The translations under genes and the position numbers were made by a program. Of a DNA stretch of 64,000 nucleotides, positions 50,668 to 62,870 are shown one piece after another. Position 1 is the stretch's first letter; each line of letters begins with the position of its first letter. The notes beneath the pieces are model-generated. The model searched no databases. It was not told the DNA's origin and saw only the letters and a list, made by a program, of their open reading frames with translations. Origin of the DNA: Gammaproteobacteria bacterium (GTDB taxonomy: Bacteria > Pseudomonadota > Gammaproteobacteria > UBA6429 > Thiohalophilaceae); the NCBI GenBank assembly GCA_029881995.1, contig JAOULO010000009.1, forward strand, positions 1-64,000, given 5' to 3'.

Positions 50668-53600
50668 TTAATTTTTGTGATCGTTATTGAAGTCATCAAA
50701 AACTGAATCAACACCATCGCTTTCAGTTGCCTTGTCAGGATCGGTAGTATTTTTGTCTTTTTTCGCGTTAAGTATAGGCAAGGGGTCAAAACTGTTCCAG
50801 GCAGGCAGGGTTGTTAATAAGGCAGTCAATAGTGAACTACCCTGTAAGGCCCAGGTGACAAAACCGGCAGTCAGACCTATCGTTACACCGGCTGTCGTGG
50901 CAATAACAATCTGACCATTGGATTCTTCTGCACGGGCATCGTCGCCCAGTTGCTCATTAAGTTCATCCAGCACCTGTTGTAAGTCAGTTAGCTTAATATT
51001 ATCTGCCTGCCAGGCTGAGATGGAATCTATTAGAACATTCTCAGTTTCAACCAGTTCATGTTCCGAAATAACATTAACTTCATTACCTGACTCGTTACCA
51101 ATCAGTGCCTGGACAAGTGGCTGATTACTATGTGTTACAAGGACGGTAGGGGTACCATTTCGATCAACGGTGACTTTTACATCAGGCTCTTTTTCCAGTG
51201 TGCCAATGTCCTGTGTATCAGGATCAGCTTCTTCTGATGGGTTTTCTTCCTGCGTAATGTCAATGCTTACTGAACTATCATCATCCTCAGTGCCCGAGGT
51301 ATCTATATCGGATTGTGGTGGGCTATAGCGTACCGTCTCGTTGGTATTAGAGTTATCTTCCACACCAGTAATGATTGAAGTTGTTGGGGATGAGAGTGTT
51401 TCTAAAGTTCCATGTGTGTCGGTATAGCTTATGGTGACGTTTATTGCGCTACCCACATCTGCATCGGTGAGGGTATAACTGCTGTCGGTTGCACCAGTAA
51501 TGGGCGCCCCATCTCGAAGCCATTGGAAACTGAAGGTACCCAGGCCATCGGCATCAGCCAGGGATGCAGTATCAGCGGTCAGGGTTTGATTTTCGGTGGT
51601 CGTACCGGAGATAGTAATATCACCAGTGGGGGTGTCATTTATATTGGCCACGGCTGCTGTAGCCGGAGAGGTGACAGTCTCACTGGTACCATGTCCATCT
51701 GTGTAGCTGACCTCCACACTAATACCTGTGCCCACATCGGCATCGTTAAGGGTGTAGGTGCTACCAGTCGCACCAGTAATCGTGGCCCCATCGCGCAGCC
51801 ATTGATACGAGAAGGTACCCAGACCATCGGCATCGGTGAGGGACGAGGTGTCGGCCGTTAAGGTTTGATCTTCAGTAACCGTACCGGAGATGGCGACACC
51901 ACCGGCGGGCACATCATTTACATTGGCCACAGCACCAGTGGCCGGGGAGGTGACCGTTTCACTGGTACCATTTCCATCGGTATAGCTGACCTCCACACTG
52001 ATGCCTGTGCCTACATCGGCATCGGTTAGAGTATAGGTGTTGCCGGTAGCACCACTGATAGTCGCCCCATCACGCAGCCATTGATAAGAGAAGGTGCCAA
52101 GGCCATCGGCATCCGCGAGAGATGAGGTATCAGCAGAGAGGGTTTGATCTTCGGTGACAGTACCCGAAATTGCTATACCACCAGTTGGGGCTGAATTGGT
52201 TGTAACCGGACCAATAGATGATGAAACGACATTTTCAACTGTGCCATGACCATCGGTATAAGTTATTTCGACCGTCATGTTTGCACCGACATCACTTCCA
52301 GTCAGCGTATAACTGCTGCCGGTGGCACCGGTGATAGTGGCTCCATCTCGTAGCCATTGATAACTGAAGGTACCAAGGCCATCGGCATCAGACACTGAGG
52401 ATGTATCAGCGGTCAGGTTATTTCCTTCAAACGTTGTACCCGTGATTGAAACGCCACCCGTGGGATTATCATTCACATTGGCCACAGCCCCAGTAGCCGG
52501 GGAGGTGACAGTCTCACTGGTGCCATGACCATCGGTGTAGCTGACCTCCACACTAATACCTGTGCCCACATCGGCATCGGTAAGGGTATAGGTGCTACCA
52601 GTGGCACCAGTAATTGTGGCCCCATCACGTAGCCATTGATAAGAGAAGGTACCCAGACCATCGGCATCGGTAAGCGATGAGGTATCGGCCGTTAAGGTTT
52701 GATCTTCGGTGACCGTACCAGAGATGGCGACACCACCGGCAGGCGCATCATTCACATTGGCCACAGCCCCGGTGGCCGGGGAGGTGACAGTCTCACTCGT
52801 GCCATGTCCATCGGTGTAGCTGACCTCTACACTAATACCTGTGCCTACATCGGCATCGGTAAGGGTGTAGGTGCTACCAGTGGCACCAGTAATCGTGGCC
52901 CCATCACGCAGCCATTGATACGAGAAGGTACCCAGGCCATCGGCATCGGTGAGGGACGAGGTACCGGCAGTTAAAGTTTGATCTTCAGTGACCGTCCCGG
53001 AGATGGCGACACCACCGGCTGGTGCATCATTCACATTGGCCACGGCCCCGGTGGCCGGGGAGGTGACAGTCTCACTCGTGCCATGTCCATCGGTGTAGCT
53101 GACCTCTACACTAATGCCTGTGCCTACATCGGCATCGGTAAGGGTGTAGGTGCTACCAGTGGCACCAGTAATCGTGGCCCCATCACGCAGCCATTGATAC
53201 GAGAAGGTACCCAGACCATCGGCATCAGTGAGGGACGAGGTATCGGCGGTCAGGGTTTGATCTTCAGTGACCGTCCCGGAGATGGCGACACCACCGGCTG
53301 GTGCATCATTCACATTGGCCACGGCCGCTGTGGCGGGGGAAGTGACTGACTCACTGGTACCGAATCCATCGGTGTAGGAGACCTGTACACTGATGGCCGT
53401 GCCTACATCGGTATCGGTAAGGGTATAGGTGTTACCAGTCGCACCAGAAATAGTGGCCCCATCACGCAGCCATTGATAAGAGAAGGTACCCAGTCCATCG
53501 GCATCGGCCAGTGAAGTGGTATCGGCGGTCAGGGTCTGATCTTCGGTAACTGTACCTGAAATTGCCACGCCACCAGTGGGGACAGAATTTGCATTGACGT

Positions 53601-54687
53601 TGATGGTAACGATATCGGTATCACTTAGAGGACCACCACCACCAAAGCCATTGTCATAGGTATAGATGGTAAGTGTATCCGTCCCAGTCCAACTGCTGGT
53701 TGGTGTATAGACCATACCATCCAGTGCAGCGTTGATATCTGCATAAGCACCATTGACGGTAATGCTTGAGCTGCCATCAGCCCCTGCAGTTATGGACAGG
53801 CCGGTCGTTTGACTTAAAGTGATCGTTCCATTCGTAACCGAAATAGTAACATCAGGGATGTCACTATCAGCATCGCTGACACTTATCAGATTGCCATTCC
53901 CTGATGAAAAAGTAATGGGAATATCCGTAACTGTAGTTTGGGTACCTGGAACTGAGTTAACCGGGGCGTTGTTTGGTGGTAGTATCCCAACCCAGTCCTG
54001 CTGCAGTGCTTCACTAAACGCAAGATTGGTTTCAACAATACCTGACTGAAACTCCAGATCCCAGTCACCGCCAAGATCAGCATGTCCGGTTATATCGTCA
54101 CTGGCAGCAATATCCGTTCCGGTCAGAACATTCAGAGACTCGAGCAGGTTGAGGCCCTCTTCACTGGAAGCCACGTCACAACCATAGATCAATAAATCAG
54201 CCTGTTCACTTAAAGCACTTTGCCAGCCTGTAATAGTATCGCGATAACTGTCCAGTGTGTCGTTGGTCAGGCTGCTGTTACCAAGATAGAGTCCTTCCTC
54301 GTCACCATGAGAGACCAGGTGGATGGCATCCAGATCCTGATAGTTTTCCAGAACAGCACTGATTTGATGGACCCCATCTAGGCTGGTATCGAGAATATAG
54401 ATATCGATATGGTCTTTACCCGCCAGATCAGCCATGAGCTCATCATAGTCAGGGACGTTTTCATCGATAAAGATCACTTCACTAGCAGGTGAAGCGTTGT
54501 ATGCATCATGCTGGATGGTTTCCAACTGCAGGATTTCAACCTCTGCCTCGGAAATGGTTTCGACAATGGCGGCTTCGTCATCTGGCAGGTTGGTATCCAG
54601 CAACACGGCCTCGGCCCCGGCTGAAAACAGCAGGCGGGGTTCAAGTTCTTCATGTATCAAACCTGTCAGTGCGATCTTTTTTCCCAT
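50668..54687 (-). CDS. Giant LEPR-XLL/DUF4347 surface-type protein with eight 93-residue repeats
   Basis: A 1339-residue protein without a classical signal peptide. The N-terminus carries the LEPR-XLL motif (LEPRLLFSAGAE, residues 15-26), then a DUF4347 domain (~68-235; IDENVPDYDELM, HLVSHGDEEGLYLG, LLIYGCDVAS, GGDWDLEFQSG), a cadherin-like segment (~237-365), and eight tandem ~93-residue Ig/cadherin-like repeats (each with SYQWLRDGATI... and YTLTDADVG). After an acidic linker (~1106-1200) and a short helical segment comes a hydrophobic module (~1255-1310; GVTIGLTAGFVTWALQGSS and ALLTTLPAWNSFDPLPIL) and a charged tail. This fits a long extracellular protein held at the envelope. The export operon is immediately upstream. 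Confidence 0.9.
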   Translation of the reverse strand: MGKKIALTGLIHEELEPRLLFSAGAEAVLLDTNLPDDEAAIVETISEAEVEILQLETIQHDAYNASPASEVIFIDENVPDYDELMADLAGKDHIDIYILDTSLDGVHQISAVLENYQDLDAIHLVSHGDEEGLYLGNSSLTNDTLDSYRDTITGWQSALSEQADLLIYGCDVASSEEGLNLLESLNVLTGTDIAASDDITGHADLGGDWDLEFQSGIVETNLAFSEALQQDWVGILPPNNAPVNSVPGTQTTVTDIPITFSSGNGNLISVSDADSDIPDVTISVTNGTITLSQTTGLSITAGADGSSSITVNGAYADINAALDGMVYTPTSSWTGTDTLTIYTYDNGFGGGGPLSDTDIVTINVNANSVPTGGVAISGTVTEDQTLTADTTSLADADGLGTFSYQWLRDGATISGATGNTYTLTDTDVGTAISVQVSYTDGFGTSESVTSPATAAVANVNDAPAGGVAISGTVTEDQTLTADTSSLTDADGLGTFSYQWLRDGATITGATGSTYTLTDADVGTGISVEVSYTDGHGTSETVTSPATGAVANVNDAPAGGVAISGTVTEDQTLTAGTSSLTDADGLGTFSYQWLRDGATITGATGSTYTLTDADVGTGISVEVSYTDGHGTSETVTSPATGAVANVNDAPAGGVAISGTVTEDQTLTADTSSLTDADGLGTFSYQWLRDGATITGATGSTYTLTDADVGTGISVEVSYTDGHGTSETVTSPATGAVANVNDNPTGGVSITGTTFEGNNLTADTSSVSDADGLGTFSYQWLRDGATITGATGSSYTLTGSDVGANMTVEITYTDGHGTVENVVSSSIGPVTTNSAPTGGIAISGTVTEDQTLSADTSSLADADGLGTFSYQWLRDGATISGATGNTYTLTDADVGTGISVEVSYTDGNGTSETVTSPATGAVANVNDVPAGGVAISGTVTEDQTLTADTSSLTDADGLGTFSYQWLRDGATITGATGSTYTLNDADVGTGISVEVSYTDGHGTSETVTSPATAAVANINDTPTGDITISGTTTENQTLTADTASLADADGLGTFSFQWLRDGAPITGATDSSYTLTDADVGSAINVTISYTDTHGTLETLSSPTTSIITGVEDNSNTNETVRYSPPQSDIDTSGTEDDDSSVSIDITQEENPSEEADPDTQDIGTLEKEPDVKVTVDRNGTPTVLVTHSNQPLVQALIGNESGNEVNVISEHELVETENVLIDSISAWQADNIKLTDLQQVLDELNEQLGDDARAEESNGQIVIATTAGVTIGLTAGFVTWALQGSSLLTALLTTLPAWNSFDPLPILNAKKDKNTTDPDKATESDGVDSVFDDFNNDHKN
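51366..53598 (-). repeat. Eight tandem 279-bp coding repeats in the LEPR-XLL gene
   Basis: Eight units of ~93 codons. Units 2, 3 and 4 (about 52476-53310) are nearly identical in DNA, differing at only a few bases over hundreds; units 1, 5 and 8 diverge most. The pattern suggests recent expansion by unequal recombination and likely copy-number variation between strains. Confidence 0.9.
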
Positions 54688-54874: not shown

Positions 54875-55702
54875 TTATTTTGCATTTGGCAAGAACTGGG
54901 CCTGACAGCGCAAGCCACTCGGGATTCGATAGTCCGGGTTGGGCAGGGCCAGACGAATCCCAAAGGTCCCACTGGCTGCATCGATAAGTTTGTCCACTAC
55001 CGTGACCGTGGCCCTGGCTGGCGCATAATTGGGTAATTCCGGGATGATGTCTGCCTGCATGCCTTTTTTAATCAGACCAAACATTTCTGAGGTCAGAATC
55101 AACTCGACTCTAAGGGGGTTAATCTTGGCCAGTTTTATGACCGGCCTGTCCTTTACCGATTCCCCCAGGGAGAGATGGAGTTTTACCACAATGCCATCGA
55201 AGGGGCTGCGGATACTGCGTTCCATCAGTTTTTGCATGGCCTGTTGGTATTCCAGCTTTGAGAGCAGCTTTTCCCGTTTCGCCAGATCCAGTTCTGATCG
55301 GGCCAGCTTCAATTCTGTTTCGGCCTCGTCTTTCTGAAAACTGCTCGCAGCCTTTTGCTTGTGTAATTTTTTAATGCGATCCAGCTTGCGTTGGGCAAAG
55401 GCCAGGTAGGCCTGTTTAGAGTCAATTTTTTCCTGCATTTCAGACTGGGCCTTGGCCAGGATGGCAGTGGACAGGTTAACCGATTGATTCAACTGGGCCA
55501 GTTTTTGCCCCTTTTTGACAATGTCACTTTTGCTGACGAAGAATTTCTCTATTACACCATCCACCGGGCTACCCACATCGGCAAGGAGTTCCGGTTCGAT
55601 GAGGCAGTCAAAAGAAGGCAAGGGGGGAGTGTTGGCAAATGCGGCCAGGGGCAGGCATACCAGACAGGTAAGAGTCAGTTTGGTGTTAATCGAGGTTTTC
55701 AC
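54875..55702 (-). CDS. Periplasmic adaptor (HlyD/RND membrane-fusion type), last gene of the export operon
   Basis: A 275-residue secreted protein: signal peptide (residues 1-23, ...LAAFA), a split lipoyl-like barrel (GSPVDGVIEKFFVSKSDIVKKG... and RSIRSPFDGIVVKLHLSLGE) flanking a long alpha-helical hairpin (~75-160), and a beta-barrel domain (VELILTSEMFGLIKKGM...). It lacks an N-terminal membrane helix, unlike type I HlyD, and resembles the soluble adaptors of tripartite pumps. No RND or ABC pump is encoded nearby. It begins 17 bases after the SecA-like gene and is likely to act with the two membrane-bound HlyD fusions upstream. Confidence 0.87.
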   Translation of the reverse strand: MKTSINTKLTLTCLVCLPLAAFANTPPLPSFDCLIEPELLADVGSPVDGVIEKFFVSKSDIVKKGQKLAQLNQSVNLSTAILAKAQSEMQEKIDSKQAYLAFAQRKLDRIKKLHKQKAASSFQKDEAETELKLARSELDLAKREKLLSKLEYQQAMQKLMERSIRSPFDGIVVKLHLSLGESVKDRPVIKLAKINPLRVELILTSEMFGLIKKGMQADIIPELPNYAPARATVTVVDKLIDAASGTFGIRLALPNPDYRIPSGLRCQAQFLPNAK

Positions 55703-55719: not shown

Positions 55720-57708
55720 CTATTCCCTCCTGCCATTAAAGGCCAGAGTTTTGTCCTGTTGGTAATCCCACTTCAACAGGCGATAGCGTATTCGAGACTG
55801 TTCTGCCTGCTTGATCGTCTGCGCCCAGAAGATCAATAAGCGGCCTAACCAGATGGGTAAATGGCGATGTGGTTTGAGCATGGCTGACAGTCGCGTCCGT
55901 AAAGATACAGGGATAGTTTTAAAAATTCGGTCATCCAGTGACAGGATGGCTTCACAGCTACCACGGTTACCCTGCCTAGCCGTACGGCCATACAATTGCC
56001 GATCGATACGATGCGCATCATTTAATTCAACTGCGATCACGTGCAGACCTCCTGCCTGTCTTGCTTCTTTCAATAGCCTTATATCGGTCCCTCGGCCTGC
56101 CATGTTAGTACTAATAGTAATTTGCCCAGTTTTACCTGCTTTGGAGATGATCCTGGCCTCATCTTCATCTTGTCGTGCATTAAGGATTTGATGAGCTAAA
56201 CCGGCTTTATCGAGTAACAGGCCGAGATATTCAGATTCACTGACCGAGCGAGTACCCACGAGTATAGGACGACCTTTTTTATGTATTTTCTCGATACGCT
56301 TAACACAAACATGCCATTTAATTTCCATGCTGCTGTAGATACGTTGCGGTAAGATCTTACGGCGACTTGGTTTTCTGGTAGGAACAACGAATACATCCAG
56401 TTGATAAATTTGTTTGAGTTCCCCGGCCACTTCCCGGGCTGTCCCTGTCATGCCGGCCAGATGCAGGTATCGATTAAAAAAGCGTTGGAAGCTGATGCGG
56501 GCAAGGATGGTTTTTTCACTACTAAGAGCACAGCCTTCCTTGCATTCTACCATTTGCTGTAAACCCTTTTGCCAGTTGCGATCCTGTACACGCCTACCAG
56601 TATTCTCATCAATAAGTTCAATCTGATTGTCCTTAACAAGATAGTCTCGACCGGCCTGGAGAATAAACATGGCCCGTAAGGCCAGTGTGATATTCTGCTG
56701 ACTCTGTGGTTCTGACCATTTTAGATTCAGCGTGTTAACAATTTCACGTATGCGCTGCAGGCCTAGCTCTGTGAGTGTGATTCTGGGTTCATTTAAACTT
56801 AATATGAATTCATTATTCTCTTTAAGAAGGTTGGCAATAGCTAATGACTGGTAATAATCAGTTAATTCCGGATGAGTCATCTGGTCCTTTGCCAATATTA
56901 AGGGAACACGAGCATCATCGATTAAAACACTATCAGCCTCATCAATAATGGCAAAGCAAAGACCACGGAGTAGAGGGACATGGTCCGTCGATATATGTTG
57001 ATTAAGCTGGCTATCAAGCTGATGTCGTAATGCCTTATGTTGTAGCCCGTCCTGTCGACGATCTCGCAGGTAGTCCAGGGCAACCTGTTTACTGGTACAG
57101 TAAGTTATATTACAGGCATAGGCATGGCGTCTTTCTTCAAGGGTTGACTCACTGCTTATAACACCAACCGAGAGACCAAGTGCCTTGTAAACAGGCTCCA
57201 TCAATCGTGCATCACGTTGGGCGAGATAGTCATTGGCTGTAATAATATGAACAGGTATTCGAGCCATAGCCGCTGTGCATGCAGGAAAGGTAGCAGACAG
57301 TGTTTTACCTTCCCCGGTTTCCATTTCGGCAATACTTCCCTGCATCATGGTCCACGCAGCCATGAGCTGAACCTTGTAAGGACGCATTTTTAATTTTTTT
57401 ACGATGGTATAATAAGTCAGGGCAAAGCTGTCGATAATATGTTTATCTTCCAGGCCATCACGTACCATGGCGTAGCGAAGTTGTGTGGCATAGTCCTTAA
57501 ATTCAGTTTCATTCATTCCCCGGATAAATTTCAGTCGGGGTTTAAATTCCTGGTAAAACTGGTTAAACCTGGTTTTACGAGTTCCCTGTAAAATCTGATA
57601 ACGGCCAAGCAGATATGCAACATAGTCATCAAACCGGTTGTTACTTTGCTCTCCTTTTTCAGGATAGGTGTCAATTGACAGGCTGGAGGTAAAAGGTGTA
57701 CTAAACAT
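55720..57708 (-). CDS. Shortened SecA-like ATPase of the export island
   Basis: A SecA paralogue of 662 residues against ~900 for housekeeping SecA. Walker A is METGEGKTLSA (~132-136 for GEGKT), DEAD-type Walker B is IIDEADSVLIDDARVPL (~256), and the second motor domain has LAGMTGTA, STNMAGRGTDIRL and YGRTARQGNRGS. The C-terminal zinc-binding and linker tail of SecA is missing, and the sequence ends soon after LSLDDRIF. It probably drives export of a special client through SecYEG or another channel. The start at 57708 is chosen because GGGGAGG lies four bases upstream and overlaps the previous gene by 8 bases. Confidence 0.92.
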   Translation of the reverse strand: MFSTPFTSSLSIDTYPEKGEQSNNRFDDYVAYLLGRYQILQGTRKTRFNQFYQEFKPRLKFIRGMNETEFKDYATQLRYAMVRDGLEDKHIIDSFALTYYTIVKKLKMRPYKVQLMAAWTMMQGSIAEMETGEGKTLSATFPACTAAMARIPVHIITANDYLAQRDARLMEPVYKALGLSVGVISSESTLEERRHAYACNITYCTSKQVALDYLRDRRQDGLQHKALRHQLDSQLNQHISTDHVPLLRGLCFAIIDEADSVLIDDARVPLILAKDQMTHPELTDYYQSLAIANLLKENNEFILSLNEPRITLTELGLQRIREIVNTLNLKWSEPQSQQNITLALRAMFILQAGRDYLVKDNQIELIDENTGRRVQDRNWQKGLQQMVECKEGCALSSEKTILARISFQRFFNRYLHLAGMTGTAREVAGELKQIYQLDVFVVPTRKPSRRKILPQRIYSSMEIKWHVCVKRIEKIHKKGRPILVGTRSVSESEYLGLLLDKAGLAHQILNARQDEDEARIISKAGKTGQITISTNMAGRGTDIRLLKEARQAGGLHVIAVELNDAHRIDRQLYGRTARQGNRGSCEAILSLDDRIFKTIPVSLRTRLSAMLKPHRHLPIWLGRLLIFWAQTIKQAEQSRIRYRLLKWDYQQDKTLAFNGRRE

Positions 57709-59845
57709 TGAACCTCCCCAGCAGAAGTTGTTGCAACCTGCGTCCCCATTGCTTTGCGAGTGGTTGATAGGCATGACGAATCTTCACGTAGACCCTGCTG
57801 CCAATTTGATTACCGATAGAGTTTTTGGGCAGATATAATTCAAGTTGGAAAACTTTTTCGACTGTCTTTCGGCCAGAGGGATCATCCGGGTCGACCAGCA
57901 CCTTGCCACCACCTTTAATACCCAGTGCAGCAGAAGGCAGATATTTAATTGCTTCAGGTACAAGACGTTTAAATCTTGCAGTGACCAGTTTATCTAATTG
58001 TCCAACAGGGCGAATTTCAAAAACTGAGGTTTCAGGATTAAACAGGGCAATTTCTTCCTCAGATATGATGACCTGAGCTGTGATATGTGCTGGGTCAAGG
58101 ATAAAACCAATAAGCTGCCCGGCCTGAACGAACTGATCGGGAAGATCCTGAATGTCAGGCACTATCAGTCTACCAGCAGCCGGGCTTGTAATGCGTAGCG
58201 ATGCAAGGCGATCATTGTTTAAATCCAGTTCGCTTTTTAGAGCCGTTATTTCCTGTTTTAACTGTTCTTCTTCCAGGTGTTGTCCTCGTTTGGCCTTTAA
58301 TAAGGCATCTTTCTCTCTTAGCATGGCTTTTAAGACATTTACTTTTCCTGCCAGCAATGGATCTTCTACCCTAAGAATTGTTTGCCCTGCTAAAACTTCC
58401 TGGTTGTTGCTAACATGAATCTGGCGAATGAAACCTGGGGCTTTGGATTTTATTTGCATTTCCTCACTCAACCAGATAATGCCTTCTGTTGAGCTGGTGT
58501 GGGGTACAGGAATAAGAAAAACTGCAATAAGGATAATGAGTGAAACGGATGCTACAACTATACTGACGCGAGCTCGTTGCTGGGATATTTCCAATGAATT
58601 AGTTAAATAATGAATATATTTCAGGCCTGGTAAAATAAACTGCACAGTAATCACCCATGCAGCCAGAAAAATTCCTATAGCGAAAAATTTATCGATCAAC
58701 ATACCCAGAATGAATAGCATGATAAATATTCGACAGATAAAAGCCGAAATAGCATAAATGAGGAATAGTTGGGCTTCTTTTTCGGTGCTCAGGCCATTAT
58801 CGATTTTAATAACATTGAATAATGCCTTATGCAAAATGAATGAAAGATATTTCTTGGATCGAGAAGCCAGATTAGGTGATTCGATCGCATCAGCCATGAC
58901 ATGGTAGCCATCAAATTTAAGAAGAGGATTGCCATTAATTAATAGAGTGGAAAGACCACCGATCAGTATTATATCAAGACAGATGGTGCGTATCAGTCCA
59001 GGTTCAATTGCTAACCATACAAGTAGTGCCAAACTCGCCAGGCTTGTTTCGATAATAATTCCCATGGCACTGACAAGTATTCTTTGGTGTTTGTCTGGAA
59101 AGGCTATGGCATTGTGTGCGTTAACATAAGGAATAGGTATAAATGCCATCATCATAATGCCCATTTCATTTACTTCACCACCAAAATGTTTTATGGCATA
59201 GGCATGTCCTAGTTCATGTAAAAGTTTTATAATTGGGTATATGAGGATGATTATGAAAATGTTACTGGTGCTGAAGGCATGTAGCCGGGTTGCATTGCTG
59301 AGTTCTGGCCAGTTTAAAATGGCCAGCATTAAGGCCAATGCTGTCAGACCCAGCCAGGCATAGAAAACTTTTTTTCTGAACAGGGGGGTGATAAATCTAA
59401 GAGACTGGCCAAGCAATTTATCAGGGTTAATTAAATTAAACCTTATGGCAATCGGATTTAGAAAGTACTGTTTGATGCGCTGTTTTTTTGAATTTTTCAC
59501 GCGGAGGCTTAACTCATCAATATCCGGGACTTTGTCAGTTGAAATAAGTTCTGATAGATATAGTTTTCCCAACAAGCTTATTAATTCATCCTGTGTTGGT
59601 GGATTGTTACTGAATTTTGTACAAATAATGTCATATAGTTCAGCCATGGTTCGATGGCCATTCATACAGCTGATAAAAAACCAGGCTGTAGCGTTAAATC
59701 GATGAGAACGCCCAAGGTGGGTATCGTACAGGATAAACCAGGCTTGATTCCGATATTCATGTCGATGTGTTGTGATATGCCCCTGTAAGCGTGGTTTTGT
59801 ATCAGCTATTCGATACCAGCTTGTGCTTGTGTTATCAGTTGACAT
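57701..59845 (-). CDS. PqqD-like/M50 site-2 protease/HlyD fusion membrane protein
   Basis: A 714-residue three-part protein. Residues ~1-110 look like a PqqD-type peptide-chaperone domain (FILYDTHLGRSHRFNATAW...LISLLGKLYLSELIS). Next is a multi-span membrane domain with the M50 zinc-protease motif HELGHA (His ~211) and the second ligand region NPLLKFDGYHVM (~310). A C-terminal HlyD-type part follows (~450-714) with split lipoyl-like halves (IKSKAPGFIRQIHVSNNQEV, ITSPAAGRLIVPDIQ), a coiled coil and a barrel. Known relatives pair intramembrane proteolysis with export. It overlaps the SecA-like gene and starts 12 bases after the GAF-HlyD gene. Cleavage of the LEPR-XLL protein near its N-terminal motif is a plausible role. 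Confidence 0.9.
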   Translation of the reverse strand: MSTDNTSTSWYRIADTKPRLQGHITTHRHEYRNQAWFILYDTHLGRSHRFNATAWFFISCMNGHRTMAELYDIICTKFSNNPPTQDELISLLGKLYLSELISTDKVPDIDELSLRVKNSKKQRIKQYFLNPIAIRFNLINPDKLLGQSLRFITPLFRKKVFYAWLGLTALALMLAILNWPELSNATRLHAFSTSNIFIIILIYPIIKLLHELGHAYAIKHFGGEVNEMGIMMMAFIPIPYVNAHNAIAFPDKHQRILVSAMGIIIETSLASLALLVWLAIEPGLIRTICLDIILIGGLSTLLINGNPLLKFDGYHVMADAIESPNLASRSKKYLSFILHKALFNVIKIDNGLSTEKEAQLFLIYAISAFICRIFIMLFILGMLIDKFFAIGIFLAAWVITVQFILPGLKYIHYLTNSLEISQQRARVSIVVASVSLIILIAVFLIPVPHTSSTEGIIWLSEEMQIKSKAPGFIRQIHVSNNQEVLAGQTILRVEDPLLAGKVNVLKAMLREKDALLKAKRGQHLEEEQLKQEITALKSELDLNNDRLASLRITSPAAGRLIVPDIQDLPDQFVQAGQLIGFILDPAHITAQVIISEEEIALFNPETSVFEIRPVGQLDKLVTARFKRLVPEAIKYLPSAALGIKGGGKVLVDPDDPSGRKTVEKVFQLELYLPKNSIGNQIGSRVYVKIRHAYQPLAKQWGRRLQQLLLGRFNV
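57713..57719 (-). promoter_or_regulatory. Ribosome-binding site fixing the SecA-like start
   Basis: GGGGAGG followed by TTCA and ATG on the minus strand. This near-perfect site, inside the end of the M50 fusion gene, decides the start at 57708 over an upstream in-frame start at 57774 and predicts translational coupling. Confidence 0.8.
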
Positions 59846-59857
59846 ATTTATCAGAAC

Positions 59858-61309
59858 CTAGAATGACCATATGGTAAAACGTAACCAGTCAGTAAATCGA
59901 TGCAACCAGATCCAGACCAGTTTTCGCTCACCAATTTCAATTTTCGCGACGCCATGCATACCTGGACGCAGCAATACATTTTTTTCTTTAAGCTGGGCTT
60001 CAACCTTGAAAAAATTTCGCCCATCTTCAGCGATAGAAACTGGTGTGATATTTTTTATTGTAAAAGTCATCAATGTATCGGGTTGACTAGCCAGAACCAG
60101 ATGACCGATTTGTTGTGTGTTGATCCAGGCGATGTCCCTGTCATCAATCTTGAGAATAATACGATAATCGTCCAGTGGGGCGATTTTCAGCAGTACCTGA
60201 CCCCTTTCAACAGGTGAACCCAGGGCCTGTTCCAGGTTACCTTCTATAATCACGCCATCAAAAGGTGCTGTCATTTGCAGGCGCTTGAGTTGCTCACGAA
60301 TTATATTTAGTTCAGCCTTTGCCTGTTGCATTTTGGCACTGGTGATGCTGACCTGTGTCAGGTCATATTTGGCACGAGCATCTCGATATTCACGACTAAA
60401 ACTGTCATATGAACCCTGTAGCTTCATTTTTTGTAATTGCAGTTCTCGATCGTCAAGATGGGCCATTAACTGACCTGATGTCACTATATCTCCGGCTCTG
60501 ACATGTACCTCAGAAATAAAACCATCGATAGGCGAGGTAATTACACGTTGTATTTTCCCTTCCAATAAGGCGACGCCACTTACTCTGTGGGTGCCTGTAG
60601 CAAACAGAAGAAATAGTATAACCAGCAATCCAGAAATATAGGATGCCTTTTCTGTATAATGTCCTTTCCCTGTCAGGCCATCCCAGGACTTCTTAATTCG
60701 AGCCCATGCATATTCTTTCAGCCAGTTTTCCTCCTCGTATTTAAGTAAAATAATTGGGCTAATGAGCAGAGCAATACGTTGGCAAAAGAAAATAGTGTCC
60801 TCATCAAAAGGGTTATCATTCAATCTCTCCAGTGTCAGCACACCGATAATTTCATGAACATGAGTGAGTAGTACAGTACAAATACTTTTATGAGGATGCT
60901 TGCTGGCAAGCTTTGAGTGGGCACTGGTTATCAGTAGCTTATCTTCTTTTAGCGGTGGATAAATAATAGTAGATTTTTGATCCTGGGCCTCATTCATAGC
61001 GTCAGAGATAGAGTTTATAAGATGCGATTCCGGGCTGACACCGGCGGCGAAAGATATTGCATGTGGTGCATTTTGTTTTGCCCGGTTGATTCTCAGGCTA
61101 ACCCGTTCACACTTAAGATGTCTGGCCAGTTCATTCACCAGTGTATGGCTGACAGCATGAAAACCTTTATGCTCCAGGCTGGCGGCAATTAATTCAATAA
61201 TGATGTGTTCATTGGCTTGCAGGGCTGGACCTTCATCAATCAGATGTTGGCGCTCAATCTTTGTTGAGTTGCTATTACCGCTTTGTGTTTGGAGCTTATA
61301 AATAGCCAT
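59858..61309 (-). CDS. GAF-HlyD fusion, first gene of the export operon
   Basis: A 483-residue protein. Residues ~35-190 form a cytoplasmic GAF-like sensor (FHAVSHTLVNELARHLKCERVSL...ICTVLLTHVHEIIGVLTLERLN). One membrane helix (~225-243; YISGLLVILFLLFATG) leads to a periplasmic HlyD adaptor: lipoyl halves (RVITSPIDGFISEVHVRAGD; MTAPFDGVIIEGNLEQ), a helical hairpin and a barrel, then a second hydrophobic stretch at the C-terminus. Joining a ligand-sensing GAF domain to an export adaptor is unusual and suggests cytosolic gating of export. The operon promoter lies in the AT-rich region 61310-61604. Confidence 0.88.
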   Translation of the reverse strand: MAIYKLQTQSGNSNSTKIERQHLIDEGPALQANEHIIIELIAASLEHKGFHAVSHTLVNELARHLKCERVSLRINRAKQNAPHAISFAAGVSPESHLINSISDAMNEAQDQKSTIIYPPLKEDKLLITSAHSKLASKHPHKSICTVLLTHVHEIIGVLTLERLNDNPFDEDTIFFCQRIALLISPIILLKYEEENWLKEYAWARIKKSWDGLTGKGHYTEKASYISGLLVILFLLFATGTHRVSGVALLEGKIQRVITSPIDGFISEVHVRAGDIVTSGQLMAHLDDRELQLQKMKLQGSYDSFSREYRDARAKYDLTQVSITSAKMQQAKAELNIIREQLKRLQMTAPFDGVIIEGNLEQALGSPVERGQVLLKIAPLDDYRIILKIDDRDIAWINTQQIGHLVLASQPDTLMTFTIKNITPVSIAEDGRNFFKVEAQLKEKNVLLRPGMHGVAKIEIGERKLVWIWLHRFTDWLRFTIWSF

Positions 61310-61604: not shown

Positions 61605-62870
61605 ATGCGGCTTTTATTGTTTTGTTTTCTCTTAGCGGGCAGTTTTTTATTCGATTCGCAGGTCCAGGCATCACAAAAGGTCAGTCTAGAATTACCCTCT
61701 GGACATGAAGTGGTAGTTGATGTCTATGGTGGGAGTTCAGTAACTCGGGTTTTGTGGATCGGATCAGGCTTTGGCTTACATGCTCGTCATAAACAGGTAG
61801 CTAGTGACCTGGCCAGGCTTGGACTACAGGTCTGGCAGGCAGATCTGGCTGAAGCGCTGTTTCTGACAAAGGGTGCCCAGTCGATGCGTAGTATTTCTGG
61901 TGGGATTGTTGCAGAGTTAATCGATGCAGTATCCGAAAAGGGTAAATACCGTTTATTAATTATCAGTGGGGCTTATGGTTCTATTCCTGCATTGCGTGGA
62001 GTGCATGCCTGGCAGTTGAGTCAACCTAAGCAACGAACAGTAATTGGGATGGTGCTGTTTTCTCCATATTTATTTACTCATGTCCCCAATGTTGGTGAAG
62101 CCCCCAGTTTTGTAGAAATCGCCAAATCGACCTCGGTACCAATTTATATTTTTCAGGCTGAGAAGAATACCAGCCGATGGCATCTTCCAGATATGGTGAA
62201 ACAGCTTAAATTGCATGCACCTGTTTATACCGAATTTATGAAAGATGTGACATCACTCTTCTATCGTGAAGATAAGGCACCTGCTACTTTTAAGAAACTA
62301 AAAACAGTAGCAAAACGGATAAAAAATATTTTACCACTGCTACAAAATCATCCATATCCTTTAACGGCTGTTAAGTTAAAAGAGACAGGCATAAAGCAAA
62401 ACAGACTTGGGCTGGATGATAAGCTGAAACCATATCGCGGAACTATTCAACCGCAGGCGTTCTCATTAAAAGATATCAATGGGAAGGTCTATAAAGAAAC
62501 AGACTTTAAAGGAAAGATAAGCGTCATTAACTTTTGGGCCACCTGGTGTCCTCCCTGTGTTGAGGAAATACCCTCTCTGAATCGTCTACGAAAAAAAATG
62601 CAGGGTAAACCCTTCCAGCTAATTTCAATCAATTATGGTGAATCCGCCTCACAGATCAAACAATTTATGAAGAAAGTTGCGGTGGATTTCCCTGTTCTGC
62701 TTGACCCGCAAGGTCGGACAGCAGGTGAATGGAAAGTTGTCGCCTTTCCATCAACCTTTGTAATCGGCCCAGATGGCAATATTAGATATGGGGTAAATGC
62801 CGCCATACATTGGGATACGGATGAGGTTACACAAAAGTTAAATTCATTAATCAGCCATGTAGCACAGTGA
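61605..62870 (+). CDS. TlpA-like thioredoxin domain fused to an alpha/beta-hydrolase-like domain
   Basis: A 421-residue secreted protein. Signal peptide (residues 1-23, ...QVQAS); an N-terminal alpha/beta-hydrolase-like domain (~24-245) whose nucleophile elbow reads IISGAYGS, so the expected catalytic Ser is Ala123; then a thioredoxin/TlpA domain (~278-421) with the redox motif WATWCPPCVEEIPSL (Cys315 and Cys318) and cis-Pro in VVAFPSTFVIG. A periplasmic thiol-disulfide oxidoreductase is expected; the hydrolase-like part probably binds a partner rather than cleaving. It is divergent from the export operon. Confidence 0.85.
   Translation: MRLLLFCFLLAGSFLFDSQVQASQKVSLELPSGHEVVVDVYGGSSVTRVLWIGSGFGLHARHKQVASDLARLGLQVWQADLAEALFLTKGAQSMRSISGGIVAELIDAVSEKGKYRLLIISGAYGSIPALRGVHAWQLSQPKQRTVIGMVLFSPYLFTHVPNVGEAPSFVEIAKSTSVPIYIFQAEKNTSRWHLPDMVKQLKLHAPVYTEFMKDVTSLFYREDKAPATFKKLKTVAKRIKNILPLLQNHPYPLTAVKLKETGIKQNRLGLDDKLKPYRGTIQPQAFSLKDINGKVYKETDFKGKISVINFWATWCPPCVEEIPSLNRLRKKMQGKPFQLISINYGESASQIKQFMKKVAVDFPVLLDPQGRTAGEWKVVAFPSTFVIGPDGNIRYGVNAAIHWDTDEVTQKLNSLISHVAQ

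Follow-up and report, generated by a model that had tools for sequence, protein, structure and literature searches.

A short SecA paralogue linked to giant LEPR-leader proteins: candidate ATPase of an ABC-less, type-I-like export locus

Giant surface proteins may have neither a classical signal peptide nor an obvious adjoining ABC exporter, which raises the question of how they leave the cell. The window analyzed here (the whole stretch of 64,000 nucleotides of gammaproteobacterial DNA) contains a shortened SecA gene within a cluster of HlyD-type adaptor genes, and the tie of this cluster to giant surface proteins sharing an N-terminal leader could explain how such giants exit the cell. In our best reading, the protein, hereafter SecA-short, acts as an ATPase, either auxiliary or alternative, in a type-I-like system without ABC transporter that exports LEPR giants.

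The open reading frame of SecA-short extends over 684 codons (55720-57774, reverse strand). We preferred the start at 57708, which is Met23 of this longer frame, because GGGGAGG is located just upstream and the start overlaps the end of the preceding M50-HlyD gene by 8 nt, whereas no Shine-Dalgarno sequence was present before the upstream ATG (57774). Homologs align from the 57708 start on, and pLDDT of the AF2 model is <50 before residue 36. An earlier note, made from the DNA alone, had considered this gene a SecA paralogue with intact motor motifs. Both points were confirmed: Pfam matches included SecA_DEAD (293 bits), P-loop_SecA (158) and SecA_PP_bind (75), and Walker A GEGKT, the DEAD box, TNMAGRGTDI and GRTARQG were all found, with motor residues fully or almost fully conserved across 38 homologs. 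Judging from these motifs, SecA-short may hydrolyze ATP and translocate polypeptides. No Pfam match to SecA_SW was observed in the protein. Coordinates of all features are shown in Table 1.

Table 1. Features of the SecA-short cluster in the window and related loci lacking SecA
Feature	Location	Strand	Details
GGDEF-EAL protein, N-terminal sensor segment	47773..50652	-	directly after LEPR/DUF4347 gene
Putative exported substrate	50668..54687	-	1339 aa; LEPR leader, DUF4347, Ig-type repeats, hydrophobic C-terminal segment
Leader motif LEPRLLFSA, residues 15-23	54619..54645	-	NF012209 LEPR-8K 16.3 bits (cut-off 17); motif survey
HlyD-type periplasmic adaptor	54875..55702	-	275 aa; hydrophobic N-terminal signal-like segment
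SecA-short (secondary SecA_DEAD ATPase)	55720..57708	-	662 aa; alternative start 57774 = 684 aa
First part of helical scaffold helix, chain end thereafter	55738..55854	-	AF2 helix 641-679; aligns to E. coli 661
Preprotein cross-linking domain (SecA_PP_bind)	56545..56856	-	Pfam PF01043, 75 bits, residues 307-410
DEAD box of SecA-short	56932..56943	-	motif; 38-homolog conservation
Walker A GEGKT of SecA-short	57301..57315	-	invariant or nearly so in 38 homologs
RRE(PqqD)-M50-HlyD membrane protein	57701..59845	-	714 aa; HExxH, NPLLKFDGY retained
HELGH zinc-protease motif of M50	59204..59218	-	motif; conserved in homologs
PqqD/RRE-like domain, M50-HlyD residues 16-105	59531..59800	-	structure matches 5v1v, 6jx3
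GAF-HlyD adaptor protein	59858..61309	-	483 aa; probable first operon gene
SecA-less loci with GAF-HlyD, M50-HlyD, LEPR-type giants	L205 (G246), L208 (G189), L211 (G216), L212 (G230), L214 (G307)		

The extent of the truncation was examined by both sequence and structure. The alignment to the housekeeping SecA of the same genome ends at residue 666 of 918, and the structural match of the AF2 model (pTM 0.84) ends at residue 661 of E. coli SecA (2fsf). The closest fold was SecY-engaged SecA (6itc; Z 41.9, 588 residues, 2.5 A). By the established SecA domain boundaries, a stop at 661 means that helical wing, two-helix finger, C-terminal linker and zinc tail are all lost, whereas NBD1, PPXD, NBD2 and the first scaffold helix remain. 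Of the lost parts, the earlier note had named only the zinc-binding tail, which is indeed missing, but the loss is wider and extends to the helical wing and to the latter half of the scaffold, two-helix finger included. With respect to the structural check suggested there, the preprotein cross-linking domain is present, whereas the helical scaffold is kept only in its first helix. As the wing, finger and linker are missing besides the zinc tail, SecA-short appears, on the basis of the model, to resemble a natural counterpart of the laboratory truncate SecA-N68. The two have NBD1, PPXD and NBD2 in common and lack most C-terminal domains (5k9t, Z 37.5); SecA-short differs in being a natural gene product and about 50 residues longer (equivalent to E. 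coli residues 610-661). SecA-N68 binds SecYEG and signal peptides and is a constitutive ATPase, but cannot translocate (PMC5603524).

A separate full-length secA, which the earlier note had expected elsewhere in the genome, was identified on another contig (G000:C86; 918 aa) and has a C-terminal CPCGSGKKYKQCH tail; the zinc-tail CxC...CH motif is absent from SecA-short. The score of SecA-short with the housekeeping equivalog TIGR00963 was 522 (cut-off 800), and the curated SecA2 models scored it under their cut-offs as well (TIGR04221, 416/725; TIGR03714, 424/930; NF012136, 354/1100). Its best PDB sequence match was C. difficile SecA2. We then placed it in a tree of 101 sequences including housekeeping SecA, Firmicutes SecA2 and actinobacterial SecA2 (FastTree, LG+gamma). 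All 66 short SecAs were monophyletic (support 0.995) and apart from housekeeping SecA, so that the separate clade raised in the earlier note does exist; its sister group consisted of the two sampled actinobacterial SecA2s (Gordonia and Tsukamurella, support 0.996). The tree agrees with that of Kamneva et al. (2015; PMC4452313). Absence of the C-terminal quarter of SecA might in itself suggest a decaying, functionless duplicate of the housekeeping gene, an idea that is hardly credible given the distinct clade, the same truncation in 66 sequences and the conservation of both motor residues and gene order.

Like the accessory SecA2 of Gram-positive bacteria and mycobacteria, SecA-short is a second SecA beside a housekeeping one, with the Gordonia and Tsukamurella proteins as nearest neighbors in the tree. 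It could be an ordinary SecA2 handling a general subset of Sec substrates via SecYEG, and both the sister relationship and the retained PPXD would agree with this. On the other hand, SecA-short is Gram-negative, lacks wing, finger and tail, and is encoded in a HlyD operon rather than beside secY; its cluster has HlyD partners and contains neither SecY2 nor Asp genes. Since it also scored far under the NCBIfam SecA2 cut-offs (the two TIGR models above), we consider such a role quite improbable. Another SecA paralogue (848 aa, annotated as DEAD/DEAH box helicase) was observed at 11863-14409 of L195 (Pseudomonas sp. Leaf58 megaplasmid pBASL58), with other helicase-like genes nearby; it fell outside the SecA-short clade.

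The SecA-short locus is not new as a kind, because Kamneva, Poudel and Ward (2015; PMC4452313) described a 'secondary SecA_DEAD' protein and the gene order GAF-HlyD / M50 / SecA / HlyD in several Gram-negative phyla, and proposed that ATPase activity comes from SecA and the pore from M50. The proteins of that study share with SecA-short the loss of SecA_SW and a clade position near actinobacterial SecA2, and the four genes of the window are found in identical order in Methylobacterium extorquens (META1p2402-2399). SecA-short has SecA_DEAD without SecA_SW, its own clade and a GAF-HlyD/Peptidase_M50/HlyD locus; the window locus is real and well conserved and belongs to this published, little-studied kind. 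In the main text of that paper, there is no mention of a substrate, a LEPR/DUF4347 protein, a PqqD/RRE domain or loci without SecA. New in our analysis are the tie to LEPR giants, the RRE-like domain, an extent like that of SecA-N68 and the variants that lack SecA.

In the window, the SecA gene lies between M50-HlyD (upstream) and HlyD (downstream), just as the earlier note had described, and GAF-HlyD precedes them. When the alignment of M50-HlyD was used to scan GTDB contigs, at least 588 relatives were detected, and 80 loci were kept, spanning Gamma-, Beta-, Alpha- and 'Delta'-proteobacteria, Nitrospira, Omnitrophota and Rokubacteria. GAF-HlyD was found in 76 of these 80 loci, a SecA-short match in 73 and HlyD in 65, mostly in the order GAF-M50-SecA-HlyD on one strand. 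Three closed plasmids each contain the giant gene, DUF3467, GAF-HlyD, PqqD-M50 and SecA. SecA is followed by HlyD and TolC in Methylosinus pMSC49a, and by HlyD in the Pontibrevibacter plasmid; in the Pseudosulfitobacter plasmid, a HlyD-type gene is located on the far side of the giant. The DUF3467 gene lies between the giant and GAF-HlyD (L182 15583-15924, L183 15446-15727 and L184 15409-15729) and was found by profile in the loci of about two dozen relatives; it is not present in the genome of the window. DUF3467 has a conserved LxPxAAKRLxxLL stretch with a weak alignment to SecB; its candidacy as a SecB-like chaperone was rejected (hhalign probability 3%).

Neither an ABC transporter nor TolC was found among the genes of the window's local cluster, which, having HlyD only, falls outside the definition of a type I secretion system. 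Giant-adhesin type I secretion systems of the LapA type have HlyD adaptors and huge repeat proteins. Both are also seen in window-type loci, together with a c-di-GMP gene nearby and, in some, TolC. However, the window cluster has a SecA-type ATPase and an RRE-M50 protein instead of the ABC transporter, and the signature shared by its giants is N-terminal. A sensor segment related to that of the GGDEF-EAL protein recurs in 5 of the 80 loci (L041, L049, L057, L059 and L094), which suggests by association that c-di-GMP might control the surface protein, as in LapA-type systems.

The N-terminal domain of the M50-HlyD model (AF2) has the three-strand, three-helix winged fold of leader-binding RREs. 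Its matches were 5v1v (TbiB1 with leader; Z 10.8, 86 aa, 2.6 A) and 6jx3 (lasso-peptide B1 protein; Z 10.3, 84 aa, 2.6 A). These came from VIA-align; Foldseek with the whole model gave HlyD-type proteins only among the matches listed, and the C-terminal part matched MacA/HlyD-type adaptors (Z 13-16). Pfam PqqD (PF05402) was above cut-off in two relatives and was not reported for the window protein; the Pfam M50 score of the latter was under cut-off (22.4/27.2). The M50 site itself (H210, E211, H214 and D312), comprising HExxH and the downstream NPxxxxD, is invariant in 33 homologs. The modeled domain appears to share its fold with domains that bind RiPP leaders, from which we infer possible leader recognition here. 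With RRE/PqqD and M50 combined, the protein is similar to enzymes of daptide maturation (NF041824; E 7.5e-37, 127 bits versus a cut-off of 300), and one might regard the locus as a small-peptide, RiPP-like export or maturation machine with the LEPR giants as mere neighbors. We consider this improbable: the only recurrent small precursor candidate observed beside the loci was DUF3467, missing from the window's genome, and leader-bearing giants co-occur strongly with the loci.

The DUF4347 protein of the window begins ...EELEPRLLFSAG, and giants beside homologous loci have the same leader. No signal-peptide-like hydrophobic stretch was detected in its start (MGKKIALTGLIHEELEPRLLFSAGAE), where the best 15-residue mean was 1.0 versus 2.2 for the HlyD signal. 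With NF012209 (LEPR-8K), the window leader scored 16.3 bits against a cut-off of 17, the LEPR-x-LF motif itself being present. The protein shares the LEPR signature at its beginning with LEPR-XLL proteins (NF012209), although the latter is a domain name only in NCBIfam and no exporter assignment was found for it in the sources consulted. We surveyed the first 130 residues of the ORFs of the 80 loci for the pattern E-x-LE-x-R-x-L-(F/L/Y)-S-(A/G). It occurred in 22 of 749 ORFs, each from a different locus, and in none of 1671 internal windows or of the reversed windows. The leader was carried by giants, by DUF4347 proteins or by short ORFs, several of which are truncated at the end of a contig; the giants of the three closed plasmids (∼8,800, 10,600 and 12,700 aa) carry the leader. 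On the basis of co-occurrence, the LEPR giant is a probable substrate that the genes of the locus may export. The earlier note, sound on paralogue, motor, clade and adaptor linkage, had missed both this LEPR/DUF4347 giant and the PqqD-like domain. DUF4347-class giants (the window protein, L041, L049 and L094) also have in common a hydrophobic segment at the C-terminus, A/G-F-x-T-W-A-L-Q-G-x-SLL...P-x-W...FDPLPIL, which might serve for anchoring or retention.

A class-wide test of 275 genomes was carried out with thresholds of E<1e-3 for LEPR-8K and E<1e-110 for strong M50-HlyD; the first searches scored four candidates per genome, and exceptions were then rescanned in full. LEPR-8K was identified in 19 genomes, strong M50-HlyD in 22 and both in 16. 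Hence, M50-HlyD was present in 16 of the 19 leader genomes versus 6 of the 256 others (Fisher p=2e-18, not phylogeny-corrected), and its carriers were spread over many families. All 15 genomes with SecA-short had strong M50-HlyD. Among 29 carrier genomes picked mostly because the leader was unseen beside the locus, 26 had LEPR-8K above cut-off, with open frames of up to 14,414 aa. In the Alphaproteobacteria sample, the leader was rare (2 of 241 genomes at E<1e-3, the centre genome among them), which is too few to add much, and both leader genomes had an M50-HlyD relative.

A strict link between the leader and SecA-short was rejected, as SecA-less loci were found. SecA-short is absent from G230, G307, G216, G204, G301, G246, G189 and others despite M50-HlyD, and most SecA-less M50-HlyD genomes keep GAF-HlyD and a LEPR-type giant. 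The first five of these genomes, as well as a more distant M50-HlyD group, have housekeeping SecA only. Two further loci (L052 and L062) have no SecA, and SecA-short is encoded elsewhere in the same genome. It should be noted that metagenome assemblies may miss genes. Since SecA-less M50-HlyD/LEPR genomes exist, SecA-short is not obligatory, and the leader and M50-HlyD therefore form the constant pair; in G237 and G108, the leader is present without M50-HlyD. SecA-short would be an optional accelerator used by some of the systems, or else a component that SecA1 can replace. Some giants at the SecA-less loci of Table 1 bear a variant leader, LEPRxxFDGA; a tie between this variant and missing SecA-short was contradicted by G230, G307 and G216.

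Taken as a whole, we lean slightly towards SecA-short being the SecA2-derived ATPase of a dedicated non-ABC, type-I-like exporter for very large LEPR-leader surface proteins. The signal of the substrate would be its N-terminal LE-x-LEPR-x-LL/F-SA leader, and the RRE/PqqD-like domain on the cytosolic side of the M50-HlyD membrane protein would capture it on the nascent giant. The PPXD clamp of SecA-short could grip the unfolded chain and, by ATP hydrolysis, feed it across the inner membrane, either through SecYEG or through a pore including the M50-HlyD protein. Across the periplasm, the connection to a TolC-like outlet would be made by HlyD and by the HlyD parts of M50-HlyD and GAF-HlyD; trimming of the leader might fall to the M50 site. 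The computed part of this picture comprises the intact motor, the missing wing, finger and tail, the clade, the operon order, the RRE-like fold, HExxH/D and the LEPR co-occurrence; the identity of the substrate, the recognition and cleavage of its leader, the direction of transport, the channel and any motor role of SecA-short are what we infer, with substrate and machine linked throughout by association. The broader proposal, a distinct ABC-less system in several Gram-negative phyla for proteins of up to ∼14,000 residues, in which the LEPR leader is read by the RRE part of a fusion with a site-2-like protease (M50) and HlyD and a SecA without wing and finger provides the motor or helps it, is tentative, and we hold it with somewhat more doubt than trust. 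The window leader score just below cut-off, the lack of a local TolC and the two genomes with leaders and no M50-HlyD speak against the exporter reading.

The SecA-less loci also make an auxiliary role of SecA-short possible. In its full form, this alternative has SecA-short bind SecYEG or nascent giants and keep them unfolded, or gate the adaptor complex, whereas housekeeping SecA and SecYEG do the pushing. Loci with LEPR, M50, GAF and HlyD that are complete except for SecA, and the properties of SecA-N68, which is of similar extent, argue for it and against SecA-short as the export motor. However, where SecA-short is present, its motor residues vary hardly or not at all over 38 homologs and its gene keeps its place right behind M50-HlyD in the operon, and we rate a purely auxiliary ATPase as rather unlikely. 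If the exporter reading is true, a SecA that has lost its two-helix finger would work, or help, in combination with HlyD adaptors, and recognition of leaders by an RRE would serve protein secretion rather than peptide maturation. For the export of giant surface proteins, the locus provides a concrete candidate machine and signal that can be tested.

Two other observations were made around the loci. A divergent gene of the window (61605-62870, forward strand) encodes a protein with a hydrolase-like N-terminal half and a TlpA/ResA-type thioredoxin domain, and a gene of this type also adjoins the locus in G002 (L034). In addition, the region 6262-8355 of L039 (contig C15 ∼66261-68354, just outside the window) encodes a small protein of GKCGEGKCGEGK repeats next to two further genes, and it looks like a copper-binding RiPP cluster of the bufferin type.
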